From a virus: 25,640 nucleotides of DNA. Made by a program: the position numbers and the translations under genes. The notes under the pieces are model-generated. The model ran no database searches, had not been told where the DNA came from, and saw only the letters and a program-made list of their open reading frames with translations. Positions within the stretch are counted from its first letter, which is position 1; every line of letters begins with the position of its first letter. Of this stretch, positions 2,817 through 16,552 are shown piece by piece. The stretch spans positions 1 through 25,640 of IMG/VR virus record IMGVR_UViG_3300006112_000049; one strand, 5' to 3'.

Positions 2817-2823
2817 TATTTAG
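2817..2823 (-). promoter_or_regulatory. CTAAATA late-promoter-like motif for the endoVII-like gene
   Basis: Reads CTAAATA on the minus strand, in the 33-nt gap between two genes and 19 nt before the ATG at 2797. It is one of a recurring set of motifs in this window that resemble the T4-type late promoter TATAAATA. Confidence 0.4.
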
Positions 2824-2830
2824 CTGATGT

Positions 2831-3151
2831 TTAACCATTGGCCAGGCCTGGAAACGATCGTACTCGTGGCGCGGCTTGCGTAGGGTTCAAGCGTTCTATG
2901 GCACGGTCACCAAATTGTCCTGTCGCCGTCTTGCCCACCACTACCTCATGATAGTGGCGACTGGCCTCTGCACGGTGTTTAGAATGTGGTGCATAATCAT
3001 CTATACTGTGCCTAGCCTGGCCACGGTTTCTCTCCACAGGCTCAGGAGACTCTACGAAACTCGTACCAGATTTGGGATTGGCTGTGCTGGTGCCTGAGGG
3101 CTTGTGCGTTGTGGCTTGTGTCTCTCTCAATGGTTTCGTTTGCATAGTCAT
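2831..3151 (-). CDS. Polar small phage protein, unknown
   Basis: 106 residues, starting MTMQTKPLRETQATTH, low complexity and polar in the first half, with a basic His-containing stretch (HSKHRAEASRHYHEV) and ending RVRSFPGLANG. AGGA lies about 9 nt before the ATG. No membrane segment, Cys or known motif. It starts two bases after the stop of the upstream 96-aa gene, so probably shares its mRNA. Likely a soluble, partly disordered phage protein. Confidence 0.75.
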   Translation of the reverse strand: MTMQTKPLRETQATTHKPSGTSTANPKSGTSFVESPEPVERNRGQARHSIDDYAPHSKHRAEASRHYHEVVVGKTATGQFGDRAIERLNPTQAAPRVRSFPGLANG

Positions 3152-3153
3152 AG

Positions 3154-3444
3154 TTACGGTCCTGGCGCCACAGGCGCAATGTTGCCAGGTATTTGATTAC
3201 TCTGTGCAACTGGACTTGTAGGAGCCACAGCACCTGACGCAAACGTGCTCTGACCTTGCACAGGATTCAAACTCCCATTTTGTGGTGTTTGTGGTTGTAC
3301 GGGATTGGGTTGCCCAAATGCATTACCAAATTGGCCTATGGTGTTTTGGGTGGGCGTAGGCACCATACCTTGTTGGCTCACAGCGCCTGACACATTGGCT
3401 TCGCCTAGGCCTGGATTGGCTCCTGTTAGTTTACCTTGGCTCAT
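3154..3444 (-). CDS. Pro/Gln/Gly-rich low-complexity protein
   Basis: 96 residues of low-complexity sequence (starts MSQGKLTGANPGLGEANV) dominated by Pro, Gln, Asn, Gly, Ser and Thr, ending NIAPVAPGP. It has no charged clusters. It resembles in composition the linker parts of the larger virion proteins at 11680-16524. The ATG overlaps the stop of the TerS-like gene by four bases (ATGA), which suggests translational coupling. Function unknown; probably disordered. Confidence 0.7.
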   Translation of the reverse strand: MSQGKLTGANPGLGEANVSGAVSQQGMVPTPTQNTIGQFGNAFGQPNPVQPQTPQNGSLNPVQGQSTFASGAVAPTSPVAQSNQIPGNIAPVAPGP

Positions 3445-3830
3445 GAGGGCCGCTCCTGGGTATTCAAAGCTAGGAGGGCTTGAGCAAAAGCTTCAGCCTT
3501 GGCAGCGGCCGTGTCTTCTGATTCTGTGACTTCTACTGCTGTGCGATCTGAGACCACCTTACCAAGGATCATGCGTTCATATTCTAGTCTAGTCTTATGA
3601 TCACCATTATGCACAGCGTCTACATAGCCTTCTGCCAGCATGACTTCAAAAGGTTTACCTGATTCCTGTTCAATGGCTTCTACCAAGGTTCTGGCGGTTA
3701 TGAGAGCCGTAGAGCCCTTGGGTCTGCCTGCACCAGGTCTTGCACCGCCACGTGAAGGTGCTTTGATCTTGTAACGGCCTTGGCTTAAAGCGTCTGCGGA
3801 GGCGTTGATGATGGCGTTGGTTGTTGTCAT
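3441..3830 (-). CDS. Putative small terminase / DNA-packaging protein
   Basis: 129 residues. Residues 27-40 contain GGARPGAGRPKGS, a basic motif often seen near the N-terminus of phage proteins annotated as small terminase subunits or terminase-associated proteins. It is followed by a helical region with KPFEVMLAEGYVDAV, similar to the P-x-E-V-M-L segment of those proteins, and an Ala/Glu-rich helix. In that role it would recognise phage DNA for the large terminase. No large terminase is in the window, so the call rests on motif style only. The ATG at 3830 lies 6 nt after a CTAAATA motif and has no Shine-Dalgarno. Confidence 0.5.
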   Translation of the reverse strand: MTTTNAIINASADALSQGRYKIKAPSRGGARPGAGRPKGSTALITARTLVEAIEQESGKPFEVMLAEGYVDAVHNGDHKTRLEYERMILGKVVSDRTAVEVTESEDTAAAKAEAFAQALLALNTQERPS

Positions 3831-3836
3831 ATAATT

Positions 3837-3843
3837 TATTTAG
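3837..3843 (-). promoter_or_regulatory. CTAAATA motif 6 nt before the TerS-like start
   Basis: Minus-strand CTAAATA ends 6 nt before ATG 3830-3828. By the geometry of T4 late promoters, RNA would begin at about the start codon, giving a leaderless or nearly leaderless mRNA. No Shine-Dalgarno is visible. Confidence 0.4.
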
Positions 3844-3886
3844 CGTGTGAGGCAAACTGAATCCATTTCCGTGAGCGGTAGGCGGC

Positions 3887-4060
3887 CTACTGATCTTGCG
3901 GTTCTAATTCCTTGGCCAAAAGTTCTAATTCTTTAGCAGCACGTAGAATACGCTGTGCATCCCTAACTCTATAGCGTGGTCTAACGTAAAGCAAATTAAC
4001 CACTTTGGCCTGTGCTCTTACTACGAGTTCTATGTCTTGTTCAAGAGCGGCCTGTGTCAT
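3887..4060 (-). CDS. Small helical protein, unknown
   Basis: 57 residues from ATG 4060 (MTQAALEQDIELVVRAQAK), chosen because GAGG lies 7 nt upstream. An in-frame TTG at 4099 lacks that support and would overlap the upstream gene. The protein is strongly helical with Leu/Ala/Arg heptad-like spacing (RILRAAKELELLAKELE near the end), so a short coiled coil is likely. It lies 11 nt after the 57-aa gene ending at 4072. Function unknown. Confidence 0.7.
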   Translation of the reverse strand: MTQAALEQDIELVVRAQAKVVNLLYVRPRYRVRDAQRILRAAKELELLAKELEPQDQ

Positions 4061-4071
4061 TCTGCGGCCTC

Positions 4072-4245
4072 TTATCTTAAACCAAGTTGTTGACGGCAAT
4101 CATATATGATTGAGTTTTCTGCTTGTAATTGCATCATTATTTGATCGCATTTAACATCATCAAACTTTGCACGAGCACGTTCAATACGCTTAACAAGTGT
4201 TTCACGACGTTTAATGGCCAAATTCATAATATGTTTGTAATTCAT
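4072..4245 (-). CDS. Small basic helical protein, unknown
   Basis: 57 residues, starting MNYKHIMNLAIKRRETL, ending YDCRQQLGLR, stop TAA at 4074-4072. A strong AGGAG lies 8 nt upstream of the ATG at 4245. Basic in the first half (KRRETLVKRIERARAKF), with two Cys. The reading frame, the good ribosome binding site and the tight spacing to the next gene (11 nt) support a real gene. It is the first gene after the terminator at 4346-4376 and probably opens a transcription unit. Function unknown. Confidence 0.7.
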   Translation of the reverse strand: MNYKHIMNLAIKRRETLVKRIERARAKFDDVKCDQIMMQLQAENSIIYDCRQQLGLR

Positions 4246-4277
4246 TTCAATAACTCCTTTTGTTTAACTATACAACT

Positions 4278-4283
4278 ATTATA
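4278..4283 (-). promoter_or_regulatory. TATAAT -10-like box
   Basis: Minus-strand TATAAT lies 32 nt upstream of ATG 4245 and just downstream of a terminator, where a promoter for the 4245-to-left genes would be expected. At 17-bp spacing the -35 position reads CAGACC, a poor match. Candidate only. Confidence 0.3.
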
Positions 4284-4345
4284 CATTAATGGGATTTTAT
4301 GGTCTGTGGCTTTTAGACAACGTTGTTTTTACGCAACACGCAGCC

Positions 4346-4376
4346 AAAAAGAAAGGCCAACACCATGTTGACCTTT
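4346..4376 (-). terminator. Rho-independent terminator
   Basis: Minus-strand hairpin with AAAGG-t-CAACA pairing TGTTG-g-CCTTT, i.e. two 5-bp stems with one mismatch, a 3-nt loop, then CTTTTT. It lies 50 nt after the stop of the gene at 4427-4636. A second, larger inverted repeat (CCCCTG 4380-4385 with CAGGGG 4414-4419) lies between that stop and this hairpin. The 181-nt stretch 4246-4426 contains these elements and the TATAAT box and no gene. Confidence 0.75.
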
Positions 4377-4426
4377 CCGCCCCTGATTGTAACCAAACCG
4401 TTTTATGTGTTTGCAGGGGTTACAGC

Positions 4427-4636
4427 CTAATCCGTCTTATTATACATGTTTGCCAGACCTGTGTCAACCTGTGTGGTAGCACGTGTTCTTTTGGCCATGC
4501 GTTGTCCTGTACGTAGATTCCAAGTTTCACGGTTGGTCTGGCGATTCACGTAGTCTGCCGTCACAATTTCACGGCCATCCTGCAGGCGAATTCTGTCAGG
4601 CTGTTCAAGTTTAGGTGGATATTCATGTCTGCCCAT
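4427..4636 (-). CDS. Small basic protein, unknown
   Basis: 69 residues, starting MGRHEYPPKLEQPDRIRLQD. The centre (REIVTADYVNRQTNRETWNL) followed by RTGQRMAKRTRATTQ looks like a compact beta/loop protein with a basic end. The ATG at 4636 has no properly spaced Shine-Dalgarno: AAGG lies only 2 nt upstream, inside the gap after a CTAAATA motif. The last gene before the terminator at 4346-4376. No family recognised. Confidence 0.65.
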   Translation of the reverse strand: MGRHEYPPKLEQPDRIRLQDGREIVTADYVNRQTNRETWNLRTGQRMAKRTRATTQVDTGLANMYNKTD

Positions 4637-4641
4637 AGCCT

Positions 4642-4648
4642 TATTTAG
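4642..4648 (-). promoter_or_regulatory. CTAAATA motif 5 nt before start
   Basis: Minus-strand CTAAATA ends exactly 5 nt before ATG 4636. If it acts like a T4 late promoter (about -13 to -6), the A of the ATG would be +1, a leaderless mRNA. Confidence 0.4.
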
Positions 4649-4649
4649 G

Positions 4650-4859
4650 CTATATTAGAGTTCTGGTCAACCTATTTGAGTCAATGGGTATCGCGACCCA
4701 GTTATCTACACAACAGGCAATTAGGGCTATGTTGGGGTGATCCGCTGGCACATAATAGGTGGCAAGTGCACCACGCACCGCGGTGCCTGTGGGCCAGACC
4801 AATCCGTCCAGGTTGGGGTGTTGAATCAAATCCTCATCAGTCAGTTGTAAATATCTCAT
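4650..4859 (-). CDS. Small protein, unknown
   Basis: 69 residues from ATG 4859 (MRYLQLTDEDLIQHPNLDGL), ending NRLTRTLI. AGGA lies 4 nt upstream, and the start overlaps the upstream gene by 23 nt. Two earlier in-frame starts (4907, 4946) would overlap by 71-110 nt and give a Pro/Gly-rich N-terminus that looks less protein-like. It has an acidic first helix, then a compact region with a CC pair (IALIACCVDNW). Function unknown; start uncertain. Confidence 0.6.
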   Translation of the reverse strand: MRYLQLTDEDLIQHPNLDGLVWPTGTAVRGALATYYVPADHPNIALIACCVDNWVAIPIDSNRLTRTLI

Positions 4860-5265
4860 CAAATCCTGTGTCGCTTGAGGGCCTGGGCCAGGTCTGTCCT
4901 GGGGCATTACGTATATCCCAACCATGTAGCTTGTTGTACATTTCACGCATGCTCATGATTGCGGCCCAAGCATAACGTTTAGTATCCCGTTTATCTAGCG
5001 CACGGTTACCACCCTTGTCCAGGGCCGCACGTGCATTTAGAAGTGTGGTTCTGTGATAGTCTTGGGCTATGTCTGGATTGGTTTTGACAGCATGGTCTAC
5101 GATCGTTAACATGTCTTCCCAGTCTTCATTGCTCCAGGCATGCAAGTATGGATCCCATATTGCACGGTTGTTGATGTCTATGGGCTGTTGTGTGTCAATG
5201 ATAATTGAATCCAACACCACTGCGATTTCTTCCCATAATTGGGCACCTCTAACAGGATTTGCCAT
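4837..5265 (-). CDS. Helical soluble protein, unknown
   Basis: 142 residues, starting MANPVRGAQLWEEIAVVL, rich in Asp, Asn, Trp and His. The middle reads SNEDWEDMLTIVDHAVK and DKRDTKRYAWAAIMSMRE, suggesting an alpha-helical fold. AAGGAG lies about 9 nt before the ATG, an excellent ribosome binding site. An ATAAATA motif lies 22 nt upstream. No Cys, signal peptide or membrane span. I do not recognise the family. Confidence 0.75.
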   Translation of the reverse strand: MANPVRGAQLWEEIAVVLDSIIIDTQQPIDINNRAIWDPYLHAWSNEDWEDMLTIVDHAVKTNPDIAQDYHRTTLLNARAALDKGGNRALDKRDTKRYAWAAIMSMREMYNKLHGWDIRNAPGQTWPRPSSDTGFDEIFTTD

Positions 5266-5287
5266 TTTAATTACTCCTTAATGTGTT

Positions 5288-5294
5288 TATTTAT
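5288..5294 (-). promoter_or_regulatory. GATAAATA late-promoter-like motif
   Basis: Minus strand reads GATAAATA, one base from the T4 late consensus TATAAATA, 22 nt upstream of ATG 5265 with AAGGAG between. This is the closest T4-like match in the window. Confidence 0.45.
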
Positions 5295-5297
5295 CTA

Positions 5298-5609
5298 TTA
5301 TAACATCAATTGGCTACGCATTACAACTCCTACTTGATTCCAATGCGTGATCAAGTGATCCAATAACCAAATTTTTTGTTTATGTGTGAGCCGTTCAGTT
5401 TCGCGATAAAAGTCACCAATACCCATAAAGATCCCAACAACCTGGCCAGGTACTTGATGTTCTTTGCCAATACCTCTAAGAAATATTTCAGCCACACGAG
5501 CCCATTGATCATCTGTGTAACTATCTACTATATAACCCAATTGCATGGGCGTAAGTTGTGCTTTGTCATAAGACAACGATTCTATTACGTCTACAGTTCT
5601 CATTTCCAT
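5298..5609 (-). CDS. Small helical protein, unknown
   Basis: 103 residues, starting MEMRTVDVIESLSYDKAQL, mixed hydrophobic and acidic, with aromatic-rich helices (YTDDQWARVAEIFLRGIG; THKQKIWLLDHLITHW). AAGGA lies about 7 nt before the ATG. A second in-frame ATG at 5603 would also work. Its start is preceded by a 7-bp hairpin (5624-5640) and a row of further structures, so translation could be controlled by RNA folding. No family recognised. Confidence 0.75.
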   Translation of the reverse strand: MEMRTVDVIESLSYDKAQLTPMQLGYIVDSYTDDQWARVAEIFLRGIGKEHQVPGQVVGIFMGIGDFYRETERLTHKQKIWLLDHLITHWNQVGVVMRSQLML

Positions 5610-5623
5610 TCCTTATCTATAAG

Positions 5624-5640
5624 AGGTCTTTACAAGACCT
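5624..5640. promoter_or_regulatory. Perfect hairpin next to a ribosome binding site
   Basis: AGGTCTT (5624-5630) and AAGACCT (5634-5640), a 7-bp perfect stem with a TAC loop. It ends 14 nt before ATG 5609, just upstream of the AAGGA site. Within the next bases CTTA and TAAG could also pair over the ribosome binding site. No T-tract follows, so it is not a terminator. Confidence 0.5.
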
Positions 5641-5693
5641 ATCACTATAATAAACAACCTCTACTTCGTAGAAGTTGTGATTTATTATGTGAT
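5641..5693. repeat. 53-nt imperfect inverted repeat
   Basis: Abuts the previous hairpin. Pairs are ATCAC with GTGAT, ATAATAAA with TTTATTAT, CAAC with GTTG, and CTAC with GTAG around a TTC loop: about 21 bp with small bulges. There is no T-tract on either side. Confidence 0.6.
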
Positions 5694-5722
5694 TGTTAAC
5701 ACAACAAATTTTAATTACTCTT

Positions 5723-5788
5723 GGGCTTGAGATCGTAAGACAGCAAAATAGATCGCAACCTATTTGAATCTTACAAGTTCTCAAGCTC
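5723..5788. repeat. 66-nt nested three-stem inverted repeat
   Basis: Outer stem GGGCTTGAGA (5723-5732) with TCTCAAGCTC (5779-5788), 10 bp including one G-T pair. Middle stem GTAAGA (5735-5740) with TCTTAC (5769-5774). Inner stem AAATAG (5746-5751) with CTATTT (5760-5765) and an 8-nt loop. About 22 pairs in all. No T-tract follows on either strand. The 269-nt stretch 5610-5878 holds four such structures and no gene that I can support. Confidence 0.6.
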
Positions 5789-5835
5789 AAAAGCCTTCTT
5801 GGGCCCCTTCACTTCAGAGATACACAGATTATTGC

Positions 5836-5867
5836 TTGAGAGACCTTTGCCTATAGTATACTCTCAA
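5836..5867. repeat. 7-bp inverted repeat after a stop codon
   Basis: TTGAGAG (5836-5842) and CTCTCAA (5861-5867) with an 18-nt loop, starting 12 nt after the stop of the 145-aa gene on the minus strand. No T-tract. Confidence 0.4.
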
Positions 5868-5878
5868 CCCACACTTTG

Positions 5879-6316
5879 TTAGAAGTATGGGCAATCCACA
5901 GCACACTCATTGTTCACAGTCCGCGTATCTAAACTGTGTGAGCGGAGCCCTTTCGCTTCACTATTATGACTCCGTTTTAATTGTTCGTTGCGTAATGCCT
6001 TGATCAGTTGCCTTTGTTCAGTCTTGAGTTGTTCTCTGTTGTTTACGGTTAATACTATGTGTTCAAACTTGGCCAGGGTCCGTGGTCTTATAAACTGTCG
6101 TTTGCCATAGGTATATCCCCATTGAGCACCCCAAGTGGCCTGTTCGCTCATGGTCATTAATGTCCAAAATTCATCACGAATACGAATCAACAAAATGATA
6201 TCATCAATGCAAGGATGTGCATCTAGGTCTGCGGATGTAATACCACGCTGTTTGAGCCAGTCAACCATTTTCCAATGTTGATTGCGTTGTTGATATGTTA
6301 AGTATTCGTTTGTCAT
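5879..6316 (-). CDS. Unknown 145-aa protein
   Basis: 145 residues, starting MTNEYLTYQQRNQHWKMVDW. Residues 10-90 are helical and aromatic-rich (EFWTLMTMSEQATWGAQWGY); the last third is polar and basic (TEQRQLIKALRNEQLKR). The ATG at 6316 has only a GAG-type ribosome binding site, and the bases directly before it form the 3' arm of a nested hairpin, so initiation may be controlled by RNA structure. A CTAAATA motif 111 nt upstream would give a leader of about 105 nt. Function unknown. Confidence 0.75.
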   Translation of the reverse strand: MTNEYLTYQQRNQHWKMVDWLKQRGITSADLDAHPCIDDIILLIRIRDEFWTLMTMSEQATWGAQWGYTYGKRQFIRPRTLAKFEHIVLTVNNREQLKTEQRQLIKALRNEQLKRSHNSEAKGLRSHSLDTRTVNNECAVDCPYF

Positions 6317-6321
6317 AATCT

Positions 6322-6405
6322 CGTTGTAATGTTTTAGGATGATTTGGATTTACCGCACCTGCCAAATCAGCAGTCCTGGCCCTTACAACGCTCACATTGC
6401 GTGAG
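6322..6405 (-). promoter_or_regulatory. Structured 5' leader abutting a start codon
   Basis: Outer arms CGTTGTAA (6322-6329) and TTACAACG (6383-6390), 8 bp. Inside are AGGA (6337-6340) with TCCT (6374-6377) and GATTTGG (6341-6347) with CCAAATC (6362-6368). Directly next to it is a 5-bp hairpin, CTCAC (6391-6395) with GTGAG (6401-6405). On the minus strand the structure ends 5 nt before ATG 6316. No gene is seen in 6317-6446. Confidence 0.5.
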
Positions 6406-6427
6406 TGAATTCTTTGCTGTGCTAAAG

Positions 6428-6434
6428 TATTTAG
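6428..6434 (-). promoter_or_regulatory. CTAAATA motif upstream of structured leader
   Basis: Minus-strand CTAAATA within the longer TATACTAAATAC, in the gap after the 64-aa gene and 111 nt upstream of ATG 6316. It would start RNA just before the structured leader. Confidence 0.4.
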
Positions 6435-6446
6435 TATAACTGAAAA

Positions 6447-6641
6447 TTATACCTGTGTAAAGGCTTCCGTTTGATCAATTTGTCCATAATCAGTATGTTC
6501 ACGTAAAAATTGTTCTTCTGATTCGCTTACAATACCGTAGTTGATCAACTTGCTTTGTATCTGTCTCACAGTCGCACGTACATTGGCTGATTTTTTGATG
6601 CCAGCGATGGTGGTTTTGAACGGATCTGATATGGTTTTCAT
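6447..6641 (-). CDS. Small protein, unknown
   Basis: 64 residues from ATG 6641 (MKTISDPFKTTIAGIKKSAN), ending DQTEAFTQV. An in-frame GTG at 6668 lies inside a palindrome and is less likely. No Shine-Dalgarno precedes either start. The ATG lies 5 nt after TTAAATA, so a leaderless mRNA is possible. The protein has a basic N-terminal helix and acidic C-terminal half. Function unknown. Confidence 0.6.
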   Translation of the reverse strand: MKTISDPFKTTIAGIKKSANVRATVRQIQSKLINYGIVSESEEQFLREHTDYGQIDQTEAFTQV

Positions 6642-6646
6642 GTATA

Positions 6647-6653
6647 TATTTAA
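6647..6653 (-). promoter_or_regulatory. TTAAATA motif 5 nt before start
   Basis: Minus-strand TTAAATA ends 5 nt before ATG 6641, the same geometry as at 4642-4648. The T4-like promoter model would put +1 on the start codon. Confidence 0.35.
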
Positions 6654-6662
6654 CTGATTTGA

Positions 6663-6674
6663 CGCCACGTGGCG
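6663..6674. promoter_or_regulatory. 12-bp perfect palindrome CGCCACGTGGCG
   Basis: A GC-rich perfect palindrome in an AT-rich gap, 9 bp upstream of the TTAAATA motif. Relative to the possible +1 at 6641 it spans about -33 to -22, a typical operator position. The next flanking pair mismatches and the one after (G/C) pairs again. Confidence 0.45.
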
Positions 6675-6691
6675 CCTAGATTAAATACTCA

Positions 6692-6796
6692 GTAGCAGAT
6701 GTTAACGGCACAGCCAAGGATGTCATCGCCCAGAATTTTTGCCGTTTCATACGGGCAGATTGGGGAATCTCCAAATGACCAAATTGGGTCTGCTAC
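6692..6796. repeat. 105-nt three-way-junction-like inverted repeat
   Basis: Closing arms GTAGCAGA (6692-6699) and TCTGCTAC (6789-6796), 8 bp. Inside are AACGGCA (6704-6710) with TGCCGTT (6740-6746), 7 bp, and AGATT with AATCT around GGGG (6757-6770). The right closing arm overlaps the stop codon of the 79-aa gene. The gap 6642-6792 has no gene I can support. Confidence 0.5.
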
Positions 6797-7032
6797 CCCA
6801 CCAAAGGACGTCCTTGTGCGTCTGACAGGACAGGACGCGTCATGTGTGCTTCTCGCATGGCTATAGCCTGTTGTGCCAAAACTTTATATTCTTCTGTAAT
6901 CTCACCTGATCTAATAAATCCACGCAGGATCATGTTGACCAAACTAAAGATATCTTGCTCTGTCTGACCTTCAGATTCCAAGGCCAAGACCACATCTTCT
7001 AATACATGTACCAAACTCTTGTGTTCACTCAT
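6793..7032 (-). CDS. Small helical protein coupled to methyltransferase
   Basis: 79 residues from ATG 7032 (MSEHKSLVHVLEDVVLALES), chosen because AGGAG lies 9 nt upstream and the start overlaps the methyltransferase stop in ATGAGTGA (8 nt). An earlier ATG at 7065 would overlap by 41 nt. Acidic N-terminal half, hydrophobic helix FSLVNMILRGFI, ending GRPLVG. Overlap suggests joint translation with the methyltransferase. Function unknown; no known restriction or methylase-partner fold is apparent. Confidence 0.7.
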   Translation of the reverse strand: MSEHKSLVHVLEDVVLALESEGQTEQDIFSLVNMILRGFIRSGEITEEYKVLAQQAIAMREAHMTRPVLSDAQGRPLVG

Positions 7033-7855
7033 ATTCAAATACTCCTGGTAAATGCGTGTGTCCATACCACGCGGCTATTCTCTTGTTGGCTATCGCTACA
7101 TACTTGGGATCTAATTCAATGCCTGTGTAAGCATAATCCAATTCTACTGCGGCACAGCCTGTAGATCCTGAACCTGCAAATGGATCCAGCACATGTCCAC
7201 CTGCAGGTGTTACTAATTTTATAAGATACTTCATTAATTCAATGGGTTTGACCGTAGGATGATTGTTGCCTTGTGCTCGTTGATCCAGGGCCACAGCATA
7301 GCGTTTTTTGGTCACAGGATCAAATGCACCCTGTGCTTGACCATACACAGACGCAGGCATGATCAAGCCTACATGTCTTTCTTGTGCGGTCACACGTGGA
7401 GCATAAAAATATTTTTCATAGCCCGCAATATCACCCACAACGTTTGATGGCAAACGTCCCATGTGTCGTGATGATTCAAGATCCAATTTGATCTGTTTGC
7501 CTGGGCGACGAGCCATGCAAATGGGTTCATGTGCAGGACGCAAGGATTGATTGCTTTTGGGAAATCCATTACTTTGTATCCACATGATCTGATCACGTAT
7601 TTCAAAGCCTGCTTGTTCTACGGTAATGGCCAAATGATGATAAGTTCTGGCATGGCCAAAAGCCAAGATATATCCACCAGGTTTAAGCACACGCAGGCAT
7701 TCTTGGTAAGTTTCTAAAGCACCCGTATTGGCATCCCAGGCCTTGCCCAAAAAGTCAATGCCGTAGGGTGGATCTGTTACTATGCTGTCAAAGTGGTTCG
7801 TGGGAAATGTGCGTAAGACATCAATGTTGTTGCCTTCAATTACTTTATAATTCAT
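7025..7855 (-). CDS. DNA methyltransferase, beta-class (N6-adenine or N4-cytosine)
   Basis: 276 residues. Catalytic motif IV DPPY at 28-31 precedes the target-recognition region, and the S-adenosylmethionine motif I DPFAGSG is at 224-230, followed by GIELD. This order (IV, recognition, I) defines the beta class. NNHPTVKPIELMKY (197-210) is the usual motif X. It transfers a methyl group to adenine N6 or cytosine N4. The length is usual for a single-subunit phage methylase. AGGAA lies about 6 nt before the ATG. No restriction enzyme is nearby, so it is an orphan that may protect phage DNA or tune expression. Its upstream gap contains a terminator. Confidence 0.92.
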   Translation of the reverse strand: MNYKVIEGNNIDVLRTFPTNHFDSIVTDPPYGIDFLGKAWDANTGALETYQECLRVLKPGGYILAFGHARTYHHLAITVEQAGFEIRDQIMWIQSNGFPKSNQSLRPAHEPICMARRPGKQIKLDLESSRHMGRLPSNVVGDIAGYEKYFYAPRVTAQERHVGLIMPASVYGQAQGAFDPVTKKRYAVALDQRAQGNNHPTVKPIELMKYLIKLVTPAGGHVLDPFAGSGSTGCAAVELDYAYTGIELDPKYVAIANKRIAAWYGHTHLPGVFEYE

Positions 7856-7868
7856 TTCAGTTCCATTT

Positions 7869-7909
7869 AATAAAAGGAAGCCCAGGAATCAATGACAGAA
7901 CCTGGGCTT
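7869..7909 (-). terminator. Rho-independent terminator
   Basis: AAGCCCAGG (7878-7886) and CCTGGGCTT (7901-7909), a perfect 9-bp GC-rich stem with a 14-nt loop, followed on the minus strand by CCTTTTATT. It stops transcription from the HNH gene, or attenuates RNA entering the methyltransferase gene, whose ATG is at 7855. Confidence 0.7.
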
Positions 7910-7914
7910 GAGGA

Positions 7915-7979
7915 GTGCAGCGGCTATATTAAGGAAATTCACCAATGGCATTAGGAGAATTAAAGTTTGACCGCCGCAC
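7915..7979. repeat. 65-nt inverted repeat between HNH and methylase genes
   Basis: Arms GTGCAGCGG (7915-7923) and CCGCCGCAC (7971-7979), 8 of 9 paired, with AATTC (7937-7940 region) and GAATT (7957-7961) inside. On the plus strand the loop contains AAGGA and the 12-codon ORF MALGELKFDRRT (7945-7983), which may be a relic or chance. The stretch 7910-7983 has no gene I can support. Confidence 0.4.
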
Positions 7980-7983
7980 ATGA

Positions 7984-8595
7984 TTATTTAGTTGCTTTCT
8001 TTTTGCGTCCAGGTTTTAACTTGACCATTCCTGCAGGACAAGGTAACCAACGATAACCATGTCTAAATGCATAACGCATGGCACAGGCACGTTTCATATT
8101 CATGCCATAACGATCAACAATGGCGTCAGATGAACTGGTTCTAACCCATTGTATGTCGTCTATAGTATATTTGTAGTGTCTGTTGTGTTGCTGATGATCA
8201 TAGGCGCCACGTGCAACGCCTGCGGGCCAACCTGATTTGATACCGTCACGCATCATGGCATCTAATTTTTCACGCTGTGTGCCTTCCGTTAAATGCGCAG
8301 GATTTACGCACAGCTTGTTATGGCAAGTATGATTGATGTTGCGTAGAGTGGGTAAACGTTGATTGGCAATCATCCAGGCCAGGCGATGTGTGGTCATCAT
8401 GCCACCTTGACCCTTGGCAGGTGCACCTGTTGTAGCATCTACACCTTTGAATCCAATAAAACCATAACCAATATTGCTGGTAATTCCTGTCCATTCAGTA
8501 CAACCTGATGGCATGATCCGCTGATTGCGATAGAACAAATCTAAGTTTACATAGCGATCTACCACAAGATCTACCAATTTAATATTACGACCCAT
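7984..8595 (-). CDS. HNH endonuclease
   Basis: 203 residues from ATG 8595 (MGRNIKLVDLVVDRYVNLD), chosen because AAGGA lies about 7 nt upstream. Upstream in-frame codons extend into the divergent gene and are not real. HNH_3-type core: H70-R-L-A-W, N88-H89-T-C91, then C96-VNPAH101-L. It carries an N-terminal region of about 65 residues and a C-terminal basic part ending KPGRKKKATK that probably binds DNA. Such genes are usually free-standing homing nucleases, though some act in packaging. Next to an orphan methylase it could be a mobile pair member, but no restriction system is shown. Confidence 0.88.
   Translation of the reverse strand: MGRNIKLVDLVVDRYVNLDLFYRNQRIMPSGCTEWTGITSNIGYGFIGFKGVDATTGAPAKGQGGMMTTHRLAWMIANQRLPTLRNINHTCHNKLCVNPAHLTEGTQREKLDAMMRDGIKSGWPAGVARGAYDHQQHNRHYKYTIDDIQWVRTSSSDAIVDRYGMNMKRACAMRYAFRHGYRWLPCPAGMVKLKPGRKKKATK
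7985..7991 (-). promoter_or_regulatory. CTAAATA overlapping the HNH gene end
   Basis: Minus-strand CTAAATA overlaps the HNH stop codon (TAA at 7986-7984). If a promoter, it would give the methyltransferase a leader of about 125 nt that includes the inverted repeat and terminator hairpin, making that terminator an attenuator. It may be chance, as a lysine/stop context easily produces this word. Confidence 0.25.
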
Positions 8596-8624
8596 TTGTG
8601 ATTCCTTAAAATATTGATTATAAT

Positions 8625-8640
8625 TATTTAGTACTAAATA
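8625..8640. promoter_or_regulatory. Divergent CTAAATA promoter palindrome
   Basis: TATTTAGTACTAAATA, a 16-bp perfect palindrome. It carries one CTAAATA facing left (29 nt before ATG 8595) and one facing right (22 nt before ATG 8663), each followed by a Shine-Dalgarno site. It is the only point in the window where transcription diverges. Confidence 0.5.
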
Positions 8641-8662
8641 TATTATATAGGAACTGAATTCA

Positions 8663-9178
8663 ATGGAAAAGTATAAAATATCCCAAAATGACGCCTGGGC
8701 CTGGCGCAAGGCAGGACACAAAGATGTAGAAGACATTTTGGATTTGGTGGCACAAAATTATCAAGACGAAATCAATGGCATACTTGTGCCCAATCGCACA
8801 CGTATGGCTTATCACCTGCATAAGTCAATACTTCAACAAACATTTGAACCGCATCAAGTATTAATCACCCTAGCAAGAGACAAAACAACAAACAAACTAT
8901 TAGCCTGGGCTTGGTTAGAGCGTGGCAAGTATACCGTGTATGCTATGGAAGAACTGGCCACGGCAGAATTTATACACGTGGATTTATCAGCAACTCAAAG
9001 ACAACGTATAACATTGATAGCACAGACATTAGAACAATGGACGGAGTGGTGTCACGCATGGCGCATACCTGTTCTAACCAGCAGTAGCATTAGAGCAGAT
9101 CAACAGGCATTCATGCGCCTGCATGAGCAGTTTGGTTTTCAAGTTAGAGGCAGTATTGCCTACAAGAGGATTGTATGA
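8663..9178 (+). CDS. GNAT-like acetyltransferase-type protein
   Basis: 171 residues, starting MEKYKISQNDAWAWRKAGH. AGGA lies 12 nt before the ATG. Order of elements resembles the GNAT fold: a first helix (DILDLVAQNYQDEINGILV), strand VLITLARDKTTNKLLAWAWL, strand AEFIHVDLSA, a long helix, then SIRADQQAFMRLHEQFGF and a final strand. The C-terminal HEQFGFQ.RG pattern is typical of GNATs. The acetyl-CoA motif Q/R-x-x-G-x-G/A is not clear, so activity is uncertain. Such genes occur in marine phage genomes with unknown targets. First gene of the plus-strand island; overlaps the next gene by four bases (ATGA). Confidence 0.55.
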   Translation: MEKYKISQNDAWAWRKAGHKDVEDILDLVAQNYQDEINGILVPNRTRMAYHLHKSILQQTFEPHQVLITLARDKTTNKLLAWAWLERGKYTVYAMEELATAEFIHVDLSATQRQRITLIAQTLEQWTEWCHAWRIPVLTSSSIRADQQAFMRLHEQFGFQVRGSIAYKRIV

Positions 9179-9498
9179 GTACGTGGCTTAGTGGAGTTAT
9201 TGGTCAAGGTATTGCGGCAAACATTGGAGCCGCAGGATGTTATGGCAGTAATCAACATGCCGCACAGCAACAAGCTATGATGGCCCAACAAGCGTATGGA
9301 TTACAAAATATGAGTCAAGGACAAATGGCAGCATCACCAAGTGGTTTTGGACAAGGCGGGTTTGGACAAATGTTTGAACCTGTTAAGTATATGATTGATG
9401 GTAAGTCAATGTCATTTGAGGAGTTTGTCAACACAATCTATCCAGCGGATTGTGCTGAAAAGACAATGTTAATTTTAAGATTAAAAAGAGAGGATTAA
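9175..9498 (+). CDS. Unknown protein, Gln/Gly-rich N-terminal half
   Basis: 107 residues, starting MSTWLSGVIGQGIAANIGA. The first 60 residues are low complexity (Gln, Ala, Gly, Met); the rest is folded-looking and acidic (MIDGKSMSFEEFVNTIYP, ADCAEKTMLILRLKRED). The second half resembles small phage structural or assembly modules, but no family is recognised. The start overlaps the GNAT-like stop in ATGA; its TAA directly abuts the next ATG. Confidence 0.65.
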   Translation: MSTWLSGVIGQGIAANIGAAGCYGSNQHAAQQQAMMAQQAYGLQNMSQGQMAASPSGFGQGGFGQMFEPVKYMIDGKSMSFEEFVNTIYPADCAEKTMLILRLKRED

Positions 9499-9597
9499 AT
9501 GGATCCAGCTATTGTATTTTTAATTTTAATGGCAACATTAATGAGTCCATTTATTTTAATGGGCATAGTAATGATAATAGAAGCAATTAAACACTAA
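9499..9597 (+). CDS. 32-aa single-span membrane peptide
   Basis: Begins at the base after the previous stop, with GAGG 5 nt upstream. Reads MDPAIVFLILMATLMSPFI then a second hydrophobic stretch and the short polar end EAIKH. Nearly all 25 central residues are hydrophobic, giving one membrane span, possibly two short ones with Pro at the break. Too short for a usual holin, but a small membrane effector or spanin-like partner is possible. Its position between two coupled genes in an overlapping operon supports it being real. Confidence 0.55.
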   Translation: MDPAIVFLILMATLMSPFILMGIVMIIEAIKH

Positions 9598-9607
9598 GGA
9601 GATGTAA

Positions 9608-9871
9608 ATGATTCAAGCAGCAAATAAATTTTACGTAATTGAAGCCTTAGGGCGTAGCAAAGAAACAGCAGGTGGTATTATTATTCAAAACACAGATGAA
9701 ACAGAATTGGCACAGATTGTCAGCATTGGACCTGACATAGACAAGAATCCAATTCCTGTGGGCAGTCGTGTTGCTGTTAATTGGAGTAGTGTGGTCAAAC
9801 TAAAAGTTGGCAGAAAAGAATGTTTTGTCATACATGCTGATCATGTATTGGGTGTAGTCAAAGATGATTGA
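9608..9871 (+). CDS. GroES-like co-chaperonin
   Basis: 87 residues, close to the 90-100 of GroES. The mobile-loop GGIII (22-26) matches the GroES G-G-I-V-L tripeptide that contacts GroEL. IVSIGP (37-42), VGSRVAV (51-57) and VIHADHVLGVV (near the end) match the GroES barrel strands. It would cap host GroEL for folding phage proteins, as T4 gp31 does. AAGGAG lies 7 nt upstream. No GroEL is in the window, so host GroEL must be its partner. Second half of the plus-strand island; overlaps the next start in ATGATTGA. Confidence 0.85.
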   Translation: MIQAANKFYVIEALGRSKETAGGIIIQNTDETELAQIVSIGPDIDKNPIPVGSRVAVNWSSVVKLKVGRKECFVIHADHVLGVVKDD

Positions 9872-10022
9872 TCTACAAGACATACGCATTACTACAGATC
9901 CAGATTATCCTGACAAAGTAGAAATTGAAATGTTGGAAAACGGAGTTGGTGTAGAAGGTGGTCAATTTGATTTAGGCCTTTTTATCCAGGCCATCAAACA
10001 ATTTTACCACGCCAACTATTAA
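9864..10022 (+). CDS. 52-aa acidic protein, unknown
   Basis: Reads MIDLQDIRITTDPDYPDKVE onward and ends AIKQFYHANY. The ATG overlaps the GroES-like stop by eight bases (ATGATTGA), the same arrangement as at 7025-7032, supporting translational coupling. The composition is that of a small folded protein (strand IRITTDPD, helix FIQAIKQFY). It ends with TAA at 10020-10022, overlapping the opposite-strand gene's stop. Function unknown. Confidence 0.65.
   Translation: MIDLQDIRITTDPDYPDKVEIEMLENGVGVEGGQFDLGLFIQAIKQFYHANY
9966..10005. terminator. Weak, possibly bidirectional terminator
   Basis: TTTGAT (9966-9971) with ATCAAA (9993-9998) and GGCC (9975-9978) with GGCC (9989-9992), followed on the plus strand by CAATTTT. 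It lies inside the end of the 52-aa gene, where transcription from both sides converges. The stem has an unpaired TTA, so efficiency is doubtful. Confidence 0.3.
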
Positions 10023-10195
10023 TCTGGATCGTATACTTCGCCCTGTATGGCGTACTTGATTTCAATTAAAAGACGTTCCATGTTGGTCAAACGCTGTTCA
10101 ATAGCATTGATTTTTTCAAGTACGCCATCAAAACGTTTGTCGCATTCGCGTATGTGATCTTCTAAACGATATAATTCAACCAATTTACCCACCAC
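10019..10195 (-). CDS. Small coiled-coil protein, unknown
   Basis: 58 residues from GTG 10195 (read M-V-G-K-L-V-E-L-Y), chosen because GAGG lies 5 nt upstream and the start overlaps the Dps stop. Upstream ATGs in this frame lie deep within the Dps gene and have no ribosome binding site. The body is a heptad-like helix (ECDKRFDGVLEKINAIEQRL, MERLLIEIKYAIQG). It may be a partner of the Dps-like protein, but that is inference. Its stop overlaps the plus-strand gene's stop by four bases. Confidence 0.55.
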   Translation of the reverse strand: MVGKLVELYRLEDHIRECDKRFDGVLEKINAIEQRLTNMERLLIEIKYAIQGEVYDPD

Positions 10196-10667
10196 GGCGT
10201 CCTCTGTCAGTATGACGTCCTTCAATTTCCAATGTGGCTTCAATCTTCCAACAGAAGGTGGCAATCCGTTGAATATGATCAGCGGCCATATTGCACACAT
10301 CTGGATAGTTGGCCTCTTGGCCTGCTTCGTCCATTTCATGATACACATCAATCATGGCATACAGGTTATCTAAAGTATCCATTAGGAGACCATCTGCATC
10401 CATGGCAGGCATGGTGTCTTGTATAGCACTTAAGGTTAGGATCATGTCAATGGTTTCTGGCACACGACCAACACCACAGGCCTGAATCTCTTCACCCAGC
10501 ACATCAATGTTCTTTTCCAAGTATTCATAAATTCTTTGTAGTAGTTTGTGGTCACTGACAAAGTTGCGTCCACGTATGTTCATGTGGCTGGCATGAGCAC
10601 GTTGATATGCCACAAAGTTTGAAGCATATACTCGTTCTAATACATCATGTAAATTTTTAAGACTCAT
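10185..10667 (-). CDS. Dps-like miniferritin (ferroxidase)
   Basis: 160 residues, the usual Dps length. H28, H40, D55 and E59 match the spacing (12, 15, 4) of the E. coli Dps ferroxidase residues H51, H63, D78 and E82. They lie in HASHMNIRGRNFVSDHKLL then NIDVLGEEIQACG. The C-terminal helix (DVCNMAADHIQRIATFCWKI) fits the family. Dps forms 12-mers that bind DNA, oxidise Fe2+ with peroxide and store iron. The start is the ATG overlapping the previous stop in ATGA, so it is translated with the ejection-type protein. A phage version could guard injected DNA, sequester iron or travel in the virion; none is proven. Basic tail GRHTDRGRRGG may bind DNA. Confidence 0.85.
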   Translation of the reverse strand: MSLKNLHDVLERVYASNFVAYQRAHASHMNIRGRNFVSDHKLLQRIYEYLEKNIDVLGEEIQACGVGRVPETIDMILTLSAIQDTMPAMDADGLLMDTLDNLYAMIDVYHEMDEAGQEANYPDVCNMAADHIQRIATFCWKIEATLEIEGRHTDRGRRGG

Positions 10668-11680
10668 TGTTGATTACCTATCATGTTATATTGGTGTGCC
10701 ATTGCCCGCATACGGTCAATAAAATTAGTTGAAGTAGGAGCGGCCATTGGACTTTGTCCTCCAGCAATTTGATTTAATCTTTCAGGACCACCATATAAAT
10801 TTATGGTTGCCGCATCACCTGACGCTAAAACATTAGCCGCTTCTTGTGGTTGCAGTTGATATTGTGCACCTGCGGTATGTTGTACATTGCGGAATGCCTG
10901 TTGTGCAATACCACCTTGACCAGCTGCCAAGCGTTTGCCTAGTTCTGCGGCCTGTGCATATTGTGCGGCATCATAGGCATTCATTGCTAGACCAGCTGGA
11001 CCTAAAACTTTACCTGCACCACGTAAAACTGGACCTAAGATTCTAGAAGCTGCACCAGGAATTTCTCCTGCTTGACTTTTTAAAACATTTAAGGCAGCCA
11101 ATGCATCTGCATCATTGGCTAGATATTCTGGTAATTTATAAGTTTCTAAAGCAACTTTTCCACCTTTAGATTTAACAATTTCTCCAAGTGCATTAAGATC
11201 CTCTGGTTTTAATTTTCCAGCAATGGTATTGAATGCAGATGAACTTGCTTCTGGTACAGCACCAGCAACTTGACGACCTTGTTGTAGACTTTCTTTTGCT
11301 GCATTATATACATTGTACAAACCTTTACCAGTTTGAACACTAGCATATGGAGGTGGTATTCCAAAATGCATTGCACCAACATCAATCAATGCTGTAGCTG
11401 GATTTTTTACATAACCACCCAAGGCACCTTTACCAGCTTCAACTAATGGAGTAAGTGTCTGTCCAATAGCTTGTGGATTAATGCCAGTAGGTCCTGGCAC
11501 AGCAAACTGAGGCATTGGAGTTTGTTCTGGTATTTTGTTTATAGTTTGTTTTGTGGTTTTATTTTCACCCAAGAAGGCATCAGGATCAAATCCTTTTGCT
11601 GGTTCATTCTTAATGGTCTTTTCTTCTACAGGTGTAGATGTTTTACCTTCTAGGAATGCATCTGGATCAAAATCACTCAT
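10664..11680 (-). CDS. Putative internal virion / ejection protein
   Basis: 338 residues. The N-terminus has two copies of a DFDPDAFLEG-type motif (about residues 3-12 and 30-39), a feature I associate with internal virion or ejection proteins of short-tailed phages. After a Pro-rich linker follows an Ala/Gly-rich, helical and partly hydrophobic region with GAGKVLGPAGLAMNAYDAAQ. The ATG overlaps the stop of the transglycosylase gene by one base (TAATG). Probably part of the set of proteins expelled with the DNA. Function is inferred from context and motif only. Confidence 0.6.
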   Translation of the reverse strand: MSDFDPDAFLEGKTSTPVEEKTIKNEPAKGFDPDAFLGENKTTKQTINKIPEQTPMPQFAVPGPTGINPQAIGQTLTPLVEAGKGALGGYVKNPATALIDVGAMHFGIPPPYASVQTGKGLYNVYNAAKESLQQGRQVAGAVPEASSSAFNTIAGKLKPEDLNALGEIVKSKGGKVALETYKLPEYLANDADALAALNVLKSQAGEIPGAASRILGPVLRGAGKVLGPAGLAMNAYDAAQYAQAAELGKRLAAGQGGIAQQAFRNVQHTAGAQYQLQPQEAANVLASGDAATINLYGGPERLNQIAGGQSPMAAPTSTNFIDRMRAMAHQYNMIGNQQ

Positions 11681-14166: not shown

Positions 14167-14175
14167 TCTGGATCC

Positions 14176-14922
14176 TTATAGCGTAATGCCAGCGTTGGTT
14201 GAGTTACCTTGTTGACCAGTTGATGTAGTAGAACCAATGGTGCCACTAAATTGTGGATTGGCCTGTTGTGTACCAGCAACGCCACCATATAAATTGGCCA
14301 ATTGTTGTAGGTAACTCAATGGTGCTTGACTTGCTGTTAGACCTGCTTGTGCACCTGTTAGGCCAAGTTGTCCACCTTGTAAACCCAATGAACCAAGGCC
14401 TTGACCTGCTGTCAGTTGTTGGTTGGTGATGTTGTTTAACACTGAGCCAACTGCCTGCTGTTGATTCAACATGTTTTGGCCTGCCAATTGTTGACCTGCC
14501 AAGGCAGCACGGCTTGAACCAATTTGTCCAGCGCCACCAAAGCCTGCATTTTGTGCCGCTATGTTTTGTGCATATTGTTGTTGTGCAGGAATTAGCGCAG
14601 CATTAATTTCAGCTTGTTGATAGGCAGGGCTTGAAATATTGCTTAATGCATTGATACCAGAACTATAAGCACCAGCACCACCTTGTCCTAAATTTTGTGA
14701 TAAGGCATTGCCTGTTTGTGCTAAATTAGTGGCAGCTTGATTTACTCCACCTGCACTTTGATTATACAAATCAGTAGCAGAACCTAACACAGAACCAAGA
14801 CCTTGTGCAGCCTGTGTGCCTAATTGGGCTTGATTACCTATGTATTGTCCTTGTGTGCCACTGATTACGGGGCTGGTAGTAGTGGTCCCACTGCTACTTG
14901 TTTTACCCTGATTATAACTCAT
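14176..14922 (-). CDS. Putative DNA ejection (gp7-like) protein
   Basis: 248 residues, starting MSYNQGKTSSSGTTTTS, rich in Gln, Ala, Gly, Asn and Leu. A repetitive helical middle and the GAGQIGSSRAALAGQQL block resemble DNA-transfer proteins of P22-like phages, which commonly show G-G-S-R-Q-A-type motifs. AAGGAT lies about 8 nt before the ATG and TTAAATA 23 nt upstream. Its position directly before the transglycosylase protein supports an ejection role. Family assignment is tentative. Confidence 0.5.
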   Translation of the reverse strand: MSYNQGKTSSSGTTTTSPVISGTQGQYIGNQAQLGTQAAQGLGSVLGSATDLYNQSAGGVNQAATNLAQTGNALSQNLGQGGAGAYSSGINALSNISSPAYQQAEINAALIPAQQQYAQNIAAQNAGFGGAGQIGSSRAALAGQQLAGQNMLNQQQAVGSVLNNITNQQLTAGQGLGSLGLQGGQLGLTGAQAGLTASQAPLSYLQQLANLYGGVAGTQQANPQFSGTIGSTTSTGQQGNSTNAGITL

Positions 14923-14945
14923 ATTGCTTATCCTTGTCTATTATG

Positions 14946-14952
14946 TATTTAA
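14946..14952 (-). promoter_or_regulatory. TTAAATA late-promoter-like motif
   Basis: Minus-strand TTAAATA in the 35-nt gap before ATG 14922, with AAGGAT between. It could drive the ejection-protein genes and, through coupling, the Dps gene. Confidence 0.35.
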
Positions 14953-14957
14953 CTATA

Positions 14958-15689
14958 TTACCAATCGCCGCCAAAGTCACCGCCAAAATCGCTACTAAAA
15001 TCAAATTGGCTTGTATCAAACGTTGGTTCTATAGGTTGTATATTAAAATCGCCTGAGCCTGTAAAATCTCCACCACCACCCAGACCTAATGTGTTTAAAT
15101 CTAAATTGTTGCCTGATGTGTCTGTAATGCTACCTGATGTTAGATCAACAGGATTATATCCCAGCTCTGCATTGGTTGGTCCCATTTGTTCTGTGCTTGG
15201 CGGAGTTGTAAATTGAGTTGCAGAATTTGGACCACCAAACAAACTTTTGCTCATTGTGGTACCTGTGGAGCCAACCAATTGACTGGCCAATGAACCAGGG
15301 GCAAATCCAGAACTTGATGCAGGTGCGGCTGTGCGTGGTGCAGATGTAGCATAAGTAGGTTGTGCCGCAGGAGCAGTATAAGTAGGTTGTGCCGCAGGAG
15401 CAGTATAAGTAGGTTGTGCCGCAGGTTGTGCCGCAGGTTGAGATGTTCCACCAAATATATTGCTAACACCTTGTGCAATAGTATTACCAATACCTTGTGT
15501 TGTTTGACTTATTGGATTTTGTTGTGGTTGGTTATATACTTGTTGTTGTGGTTGACTATAAGATGGCATTGAAGATGTAGATTGATTACTTGGTGTACCA
15601 AATAAAAAATCCATCAATTCATTTTCAAATGAATTTGATCCTGAACTTGATGTTCCTGTTGATGATCCGCCGCTTTTGCCTTGACTCAT
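14958..15689 (-). CDS. Low-complexity virion-region protein
   Basis: 243 residues, starting MSQGKSGGSSTGTSSSG, mostly Ser, Gln, Pro, Thr, Ala and Gly, with a hydrophobic patch ELMDFLFGTPS. Residues near the middle hold three 9-residue tandem copies of AAQPTYTAP. The end is Asp/Phe-rich (TSQFDFSSDFGGDFGGDW), a distinctive acidic tail. GGAC lies near the start. No family is recognised; its place between tail and ejection genes suggests a virion scaffold or linker protein. Confidence 0.65.
   Translation of the reverse strand: MSQGKSGGSSTGTSSSGSNSFENELMDFLFGTPSNQSTSSMPSYSQPQQQVYNQPQQNPISQTTQGIGNTIAQGVSNIFGGTSQPAAQPAAQPTYTAPAAQPTYTAPAAQPTYATSAPRTAAPASSSGFAPGSLASQLVGSTGTTMSKSLFGGPNSATQFTTPPSTEQMGPTNAELGYNPVDLTSGSITDTSGNNLDLNTLGLGGGGDFTGSGDFNIQPIEPTFDTSQFDFSSDFGGDFGGDW
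15355..15435. repeat. 27-bp tandem repeat, three copies
   Basis: Unit GTAGGTTGTGCCGCAGGAGC plus AGTATAA begins at 15355, 15382 and 15409. The third copy diverges after its first 16 bases into a 12-base GTTGTGCCGCAG repeat. It encodes the AAQPTYTAP repeats of the minus-strand gene. Near-identical at DNA level, so likely recent and slippage-prone. Confidence 0.85.
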
Positions 15690-16545: not shown

Positions 16546-16552
16546 TATTTAA
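16546..16552 (-). promoter_or_regulatory. TTAAATA late-promoter-like motif
   Basis: Minus-strand TTAAATA in the 32-nt gap before ATG 16524, at 21 nt from the start codon, close to the spacing seen at 14946 and 5288. Confidence 0.35.

Follow-up and report, generated by a model that had tools for sequence, protein, structure and literature searches.

Late promoters of phage T4, which operate with gp55, gp33 and gp45, consist of one AT-rich element located roughly a helical turn ahead of the transcription start site (+1), in the form of an 8-base-pair (bp) box whose first base lies at −13 (PMC2988020). Another one-element late promoter, tAATGTAtA, is served by the gp36 sigma factor of phage phiEco32, with transcription starting 6–8 bp downstream (PMC8948821). 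In cellular genomes, leaderless genes carry a TA-like signal ~10 bp upstream of the start codon (Zheng et al. 2011, PMC3160421), and leaderless transcripts have been noted, in a brief aside of a study of phage AR9, to be frequent among phages (PMC5312081). Here we describe three genes in which the word TAAATA ends 5 or 6 nucleotides (nt) before the ATG. They lie in the IMG/VR virus record IMGVR_UViG_3300006112_000049, whose entire 25,640 bases are referred to below as the window, and which represents a tailed phage with genes mainly on the minus strand.

The window sites share the TAAATA core with T4 late promoters, whose consensus is TATAAATA, but differ in having GC, CC or GT before it. Because TAAATA corresponds to the last six bases of the T4 box (−11 to −6), a gap of 5 nt would set +1 on the A of ATG. 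The geometry is the same as that of the cellular leaderless genes, where a −10 element is placed so that +1 coincides with the start codon; however, those genes use the sigma70-type TANNNT, whereas the word here is of the phage late type and is found beside genes led by a Shine–Dalgarno (SD) sequence that carry the same word. The phiEco32-like phages differ both in their word and in encoding the sigma factor, none having been found in relatives of the window, and T4 likewise encodes gp55, for which no counterpart was found in the window family. Leaderless genes recognized by the spacing of a −10 element, leaderless phage transcripts and T4-type late promoters are therefore all known already. 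A class of late genes in which promoter spacing fixes +1 on the AUG, common to lake phages and T4-like phages of SAR11, would be new. Among the matches listed in the open literature (titles and abstract openings, with most subscription journals outside), we found no leaderless late genes with T4-type promoters.

We propose that TAAATA forms the core of a single-element promoter of the T4 late type (gp55-like) that is used at two distances. Where the word ends 5 nt (4–6 nt) before the ATG, RNA polymerase would start at the A of ATG and produce a leaderless mRNA, to be translated from its 5′-terminal AUG, whereas a word 17–30 nt upstream would give rise to a short-leader mRNA, mostly with an SD. 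We judge this proposal to be probable. The word, its spacing and conservation, the bimodal distances, the missing SD and the pyrimidine at −1 are read directly from the DNA; from these we infer the promoter role, the position of +1, translation from a 5′ AUG and the kind of factor involved. On sequence grounds, the arrangement looks like a real, little-noticed phage route to late proteins that dispenses with a ribosome-binding leader. If so, one promoter type would feed two modes of translation within one infection, terminators could directly precede late genes, and the spacing would show which start codons are correct. The question also arises of whether infected cells shift to leaderless (70S) initiation late in infection.

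Three start codons with TAAATA close by

The three genes and their associated words are as follows.

3837..3843, minus strand: promoter-like word CTAAATA, ending 6 nt before ATG 3830 (upstream sequence cgCTAAATAaattat, then ATG)
3441..3830, minus strand: gene for the GGARPGAGRPKGS protein, 129 amino acids (aa), starting at ATG 3830 without an SD; predicted leaderless
4642..4648, minus strand: CTAAATA word, ending 5 nt before ATG 4636 (upstream sequence gcCTAAATAaggct, then ATG)
4427..4636, minus strand: 69-aa gene with no function assigned, starting at ATG 4636 without a properly spaced SD; predicted leaderless
6647..6653, minus strand: TTAAATA word, ending 5 nt before ATG 6641 (upstream sequence cagTTAAATAtatac, then ATG)
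6447..6641, minus strand: 64-aa gene with no function assigned, starting at ATG 6641 without an SD; predicted leaderless

A preliminary description of this DNA had placed (C/T)TAAATA 6, 5 and 5 nt ahead of ATG 3830, 4636 and 6641, and both the words and the distances are correct. It also held that no properly spaced SD is present, which is borne out by a scan for the SD 4-mers AGGA, GGAG, GAGG and AAGG at −16 to −4 (0/3). Gene 4636 has an AAGG just 2 nt from its ATG, which is unlikely to work well because it is too near. Each of the three genes combines the features by which leaderless genes are recognized, namely an AUG start, no SD and a promoter-like element ~10 bp upstream. With 22 TAAATA on both strands of the window and 30–37 genes, chance alone predicts 0.039–0.048 cases at 4–6 nt, as compared with the three seen (Poisson P ~1e-5).

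The spacing is conserved in homologues from 147 related loci (L003–L149), which were collected by using two window proteins as baits (67 loci for the first; the best 80 of 198 for the second). We counted distinct homologue starts with TAAATA 3–7 nt before an in-frame ATG, including the window-identical copies of all three genes in L096. For gene 3830, the word lies 4–6 nt before the ATG in 39 of 52 homologue starts (28 at 5 nt, seven at 6 nt and four at 4 nt). The corresponding counts are 3/3 for gene 4636, all at 5 nt, and 5/6 for gene 6641 (four at 5 nt, one at 7 nt), with one identical copy in each set; the word is absent before the 6641 homologue of L095, and one more homologue of this gene was left out as truncated. 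Seven control genes gave 0/5, 0/4, 0/2, 0/36, 0/45, 2/30 and 0/7 (2/129 together). Even in L074, whose homologues are just 37 percent identical, the 5-nt spacing is kept for both 4636 and 6641.

A further statement of the preliminary description, that neighbouring genes use ordinary SD sites, holds only in part. An SD 4-mer does accompany 22 of the 35 starts listed (among these 22, 4858 and 8592 are listed a few bases off), but ten starts besides the three have none. The word itself is not peculiar to the three genes, because it also occurs 19–29 nt before six other window genes (ATG 2797, 5265, 8595, 8663, 14922 and 16524, with the 8595 start placed by eye), an SD 4-mer being present in four of the six. 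These more distant words are located as follows.

2817..2822, minus strand: TAAATA, 19 nt before ATG 2797 (endonuclease VII-like gene), no SD 4-mer
5288..5293, minus strand: TAAATA, 22 nt before the SD-led gene 5265 (leadered use)
8625..8640, no strand assigned: perfect palindrome TATTTAGTACTAAATA, two TAAATA back to back between SD-led divergent genes, 29 nt before gene 8595 (minus strand) and 22 nt before gene 8663 (plus strand)
14946..14951, minus strand: TAAATA, 23 nt before the SD-led gene 14922
16546..16551, minus strand: TAAATA, 21 nt before gene 16524, no SD 4-mer

Distances in relatives and in T4-like phages

When each TAAATA in the 147 loci and the window was compared with each ATG opening an open reading frame (ORF), the distances proved to be bimodal: they peak sharply at 5 nt, flanked by shoulders at 4 and 6 nt, and beyond a valley at 8–16 nt they form a broad hill at 17–30 nt. 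Exactly 5 nt was found in 97 records, or 22 protein clusters after homologues were merged, as against a mean of 4.4 clusters per spacing at 8–16 nt and 3.5 at 31–45 nt (Poisson P 4e-11). Removal of the bait family left 65 records and 21 clusters at 5 nt; by bait, the peak amounts to 73 records for the second and 15 for the first. The SD words AGGA, GGAG and GAGG accompany 3/126 records at 4–6 nt versus 134/221 at 17–30 nt (2/29 versus 28/56 by cluster), and with AAGG included the non-redundant counts are 4/76 at 5 nt versus 129/184 at 17–30 nt. The bases flanking the word are alike in the close and distant classes, with A four positions before it, G or C at two and three before and A or C directly before. 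For this reason, one element seems to serve both distances, a behaviour more in line with a promoter than with a ribosome signal.

The base directly before the ATG in the non-redundant 5-nt class is T in 63 and C in eight of 76 cases (pyrimidine 71/76), as expected of an initiator with a pyrimidine at −1 and a purine at +1. Across the non-coding DNA of ten genomes (the window and nine relatives), no hexamer is more enriched than TAAATA with its complement (125 occurrences versus 46.9 expected), and SD words come next; in 338 kilobases (kb) of coding DNA, the pair occurs 106 times. The non-coding DNA is hardly enriched for TATAAT (55 observed, 42.5 expected) or TTGACA (23 and 21.6). Regarding a possible −35 element, base counts revealed no strong upstream column across the 76 sites; within the family of gene 3830, the word CACGGAA is conserved upstream, ~24 nt before TAAATA (3837–3875 in the window; L070–L079), the interval being ~9 nt in some distant relatives, L095 among them.

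The same arrangement recurs in T4-like phages that encode gp55. HTVC008M, a T4-like Pelagibacter (SAR11) phage with an annotated gp55, has 14 TAAATA-N5-ATG sites as compared with four for the backward control, and 12 of the 14 ATGs are annotated starts of coding sequences (CDSs), including those of the DNA end protector, a head closure protein and baseplate genes. C or T precedes the ATG in 11 of these 12 annotated starts, the full TATAAATA is present at 5/12, and an SD 4-mer accompanies 0/10 close starts on the plus strand versus 22/39 other plus-strand CDSs picked from the first 50 kb. Mosig, also a Pelagibacter phage with gp55, has 11 sites versus three in the backward control; in the stretch read, six of ten sites are annotated starts, the DNA end protector again among them, four are not, and the eleventh site lies outside. 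Sites and backward controls number 10 and 5 in T4, 5 and 3 in Melnitz, 3 and 0 in Moby, and 2 and 0 in MW202484.

In 80 viral contigs retrieved by means of a gp55 alignment (the best 80 of 592), 37 ORF starts lie at 5 nt, and the next highest count is 21, at 20 nt. The 35 non-redundant 5-nt cases have T before the ATG in 31 instances and an SD in two. A terminator-like hairpin is present just upstream in 14/35 of them, versus 10/83 at 17–30 nt, 5/55 at 31–45 nt and 2/41 at 7–16 nt. Conserved spacing, bimodal distances, near-absence of the SD from the close class only, the pyrimidine before the ATG, similar flanks and this recurrence in gp55-encoding phages together support the earlier suggestion that the three window genes are expressed from leaderless mRNAs with +1 at the ATG.

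The word might instead act in translation, as an AU-rich enhancer (S1 site) within the leader of mRNAs that lack an SD and originate at a promoter farther upstream. The lack of an SD at the three genes is in keeping with this idea, as is the fact that U at −1 can aid initiation by pairing with A37 of the initiator tRNA. We nevertheless find it very unlikely. An enhancer would not readily explain the exact 5-nt spacing, nor the same word and flanks 17–30 nt before SD-led genes, and T at −1 is far rarer in SD-less genes lacking the word (36/96 in the ten genomes) than in motif-led genes (25/26; SD-led genes, 61/234). The terminator-like hairpins directly upstream of gp55-contig cases argue in the same direction, although the window family has such hairpins in just 6/76 cases at 5 nt (and in 6/184 at 17–30 nt).

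Translation could also be coupled to that of the preceding gene, with the word merely marking overlapping TAA stop codons. By eye, the TAA of the word does resemble the stop of the preceding gene in several families, such as that of the MPLIKS proteins, and gene 4636 begins 13 nt after an upstream stop codon (TAG), so that coupling is conceivable there. However, the ORF listed ahead of 3830 ends 56 nt upstream of it and the one ahead of 6641 ends 151 nt upstream, and in some families a hairpin and a T-run, rather than the end of a gene, are found just upstream. We regard this reading as extremely improbable.

In addition to the TAG before 4636, a number of observations count against a T4-late-type promoter acting at two distances. 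Starts were picked as ATGs near the word, which biases individual genes toward the hypothesis. The three window sites do not preserve the opening two bases of TATAAATA, and their match to T4 extends to the TAAATA core only. Some control words also peak: among first-bait loci, ATAAAT reaches 19 at 1 nt and exceeds TAAATA (15 at 5 nt), and among second-bait loci the top controls are ATAAAT with 35 at 6 nt, where overlap with the word is possible, and AATAAA with 21 at 3 nt. Within the gp55 contigs, the control AATAAA has a count of 28 at 15 nt, two families make up 26 of 36 TAAATA cases within the ten protein clusters at 5 nt, and SDs are scarce at large (17/83 at 17–30 nt). T4 itself has 32 TATAAATA sites, none of which lies less than 13 nt from the start of an ORF of at least 40 aa. 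No clear excess of 5-nt sites over the backward control was seen in Cr30 (0 and 1), phiN3 (0 and 0), KVP40 (2 and 2) or V07 (4 and 3), and the close class is not in excess in three cyanophages, P-SSM2 (6 and 6), P-SSM4 (4 and 6) and S-ShM2 (0 and 1). The KVP40 site TAAATAGTCGTATG was ruled out as a start; it lies within the portal gene.

The leadered class is also at odds with the predicted start site, with a pyrimidine in 51/132 and a purine in 67/132 cases at the predicted −1/+1 step instead of a pyrimidine/purine pair, and with T commoner at −2 and A at −1. This pattern suggests that start sites in that class are possibly one base earlier than predicted. It lends some weight to the alternative that the promoter is real but transcription begins 1–4 nt before the ATG, leaving a very short leader, or that a later ATG is the true start codon; the occurrence of 4- and 6-nt spacings points the same way. 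On the other hand, T directly before the ATG in most of the 5-nt class disfavours a start at that base, and the annotated starts of HTVC008M speak against a later ATG. Overall, we hold this alternative to be quite unlikely.

The factor that may read the putative promoter

The searches for a reading factor belong among the contrary results. The gp55 family phrog_234 of PHROG was found in T4 and in 0/29 other records (the window not included), and the Pfam family Sigma70_r2 in 0/27 relatives; a divergent sigma factor could be missed, because T4 gp55 itself scores below the Sigma70_r2 cut-off. Our own gp55 hidden Markov model, applied to 22,444 open frames of the window (a fragment), relatives and controls, gave no match better than E 0.7 outside three controls, which belonged to its training set. 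The result for T7-like RNA polymerase (PF00940, 0/28) is not usable, as no positive control matched.

A family scan covered 76 proteins picked from six relatives (G001 36, G009 22, G019 9, G002 5, G003 2, G023 2), with large tail genes mostly omitted and with 25 of 65 PHROG families and all 23 Pfam families listed. The families include terminase, SU10-type portal and capsid (Pfam), methyltransferases, HNH and homing endonucleases, glycosyltransferases, GroES and ferritin-like proteins. Absent from the families listed are polymerases, primases, helicases, integrases and sigma factors, none of which came up in single scans of 20 proteins either. With the helicase profile phrog_16, matches were obtained in T4, in HTVC008M and in just one of six relatives, G019, where the match is weak and falls within a methyltransferase gene. 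A 239-aa protein common to relatives gave a predicted structure too weak to be informative (predicted local distance difference test, pLDDT, 62). SU10, whose portal and capsid types these relatives match, is a phiEco32-like phage.

End repeats of 99–191 bases are present in six of nine relatives, which look complete at 34–39 kb (L156–L163, L169–L170 and L173–L174). No replication or transcription gene was recognized in these apparently complete genomes. A phage satellite would be without such genes of its own; small phages often lack a DNA polymerase (PMC9860041).

The promoter may be read by a sigma factor too divergent to detect, by a host factor, or by gp55 from a co-infecting T4-like phage. 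One relative (G003) encodes a glycosyltransferase with named-phage matches in 54 records, 51 of which are Synechococcus phages; the best (47.6 percent) is in ACG-2014f, a large cyanophage whose sequenced members carry gp55. One could imagine that the family has no late sigma factor of its own and relies on a co-infecting T4-like phage, whose gp55-type factor would read the family's gene set, including the leaderless genes; these viruses would then be capsid-encoding, replication-poor dependents of T4-like phages that have adopted the late promoter of the latter. We consider this scenario unlikely.

The hairpin at gene 4636 and further observations

The CTAAATA word of gene 4636 (4642..4648) is overlapped by the inverted repeat ATAGCCT-AAATA-AGGCTAT, so that in a read-through RNA the word would lie inside a hairpin, AUAGCCU-AAAUA-AGGCUAU, whose stem includes the AU of the AUG. 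A transcript beginning at the AUG would lose the other arm, and we suggest that the hairpin hides the start region in read-through RNA only. The inverted repeat is kept in L073 and is somewhat shorter in L074. Hairpins near the three starts show no clear excess over shuffled sequences (z −0.86, −1.12 and +2.14), and the refinement for 4636 is put forward as a suggestion only because its folding energy is not unusual (z −0.86). A similar arrangement is known for T4 gene e, whose late promoter sits within a leader hairpin; a late start there drops the 5′ arm of the hairpin hiding the start region, as proposed for 4636, but unlike the predicted 4636 transcript it retains a leader with a ribosome binding site (PMC3014915).

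Near gene 6641 (6647–6687), a plus-strand TTAAATA opposes the putative promoter of this gene across a GGCGCC-ACGT-GGCGTC hairpin. At the divergent gene pair of relative G001 (L157, ~11522–11598), TAAATA stands before both genes, as it does in the window. The protein of gene 3830 has a weak small-terminase-like match (E 0.058); its predicted structure is too weak to interpret (pLDDT 67), and the corresponding PDB search returned nothing better than E 1.5. Other window genes include an endonuclease VII-like gene (2495–2797) and a GroES-like gene (9608–9871), both of which have counterparts in T4, and a ferritin/Dps-like gene (10185–10667), judged by the matches of a relative.

Among named phages, there was no near DNA match to window positions 3000–15000, no match to the gene 3830 protein at E 1e-5 and none to the protein of 10185–10667. 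A search for the host by means of capsid matches in genome contigs gave 30 stretches, of which none was confirmed. One relative's contig (G021; L164–L166, 54.5 kb) holds two head-to-tail genome copies with a unit of ~33.2 kb, 74–87 percent identical across ten aligned pieces, and may be a tandem prophage, a concatemer or an assembly chimera; on the contig of L145 and L148, the homologue of gene 3830 is also present twice. The closest named genome found is MW202484.1 (record title Podoviridae sp.), one virion protein of which is 51 percent identical and whose capsid and terminase are 62 and 52 percent identical to proteins of a window relative. At 7955–9058 of this record (L002), a plus-strand capsid match lies where a minus-strand hypothetical gene is annotated, which is likely a misannotation.

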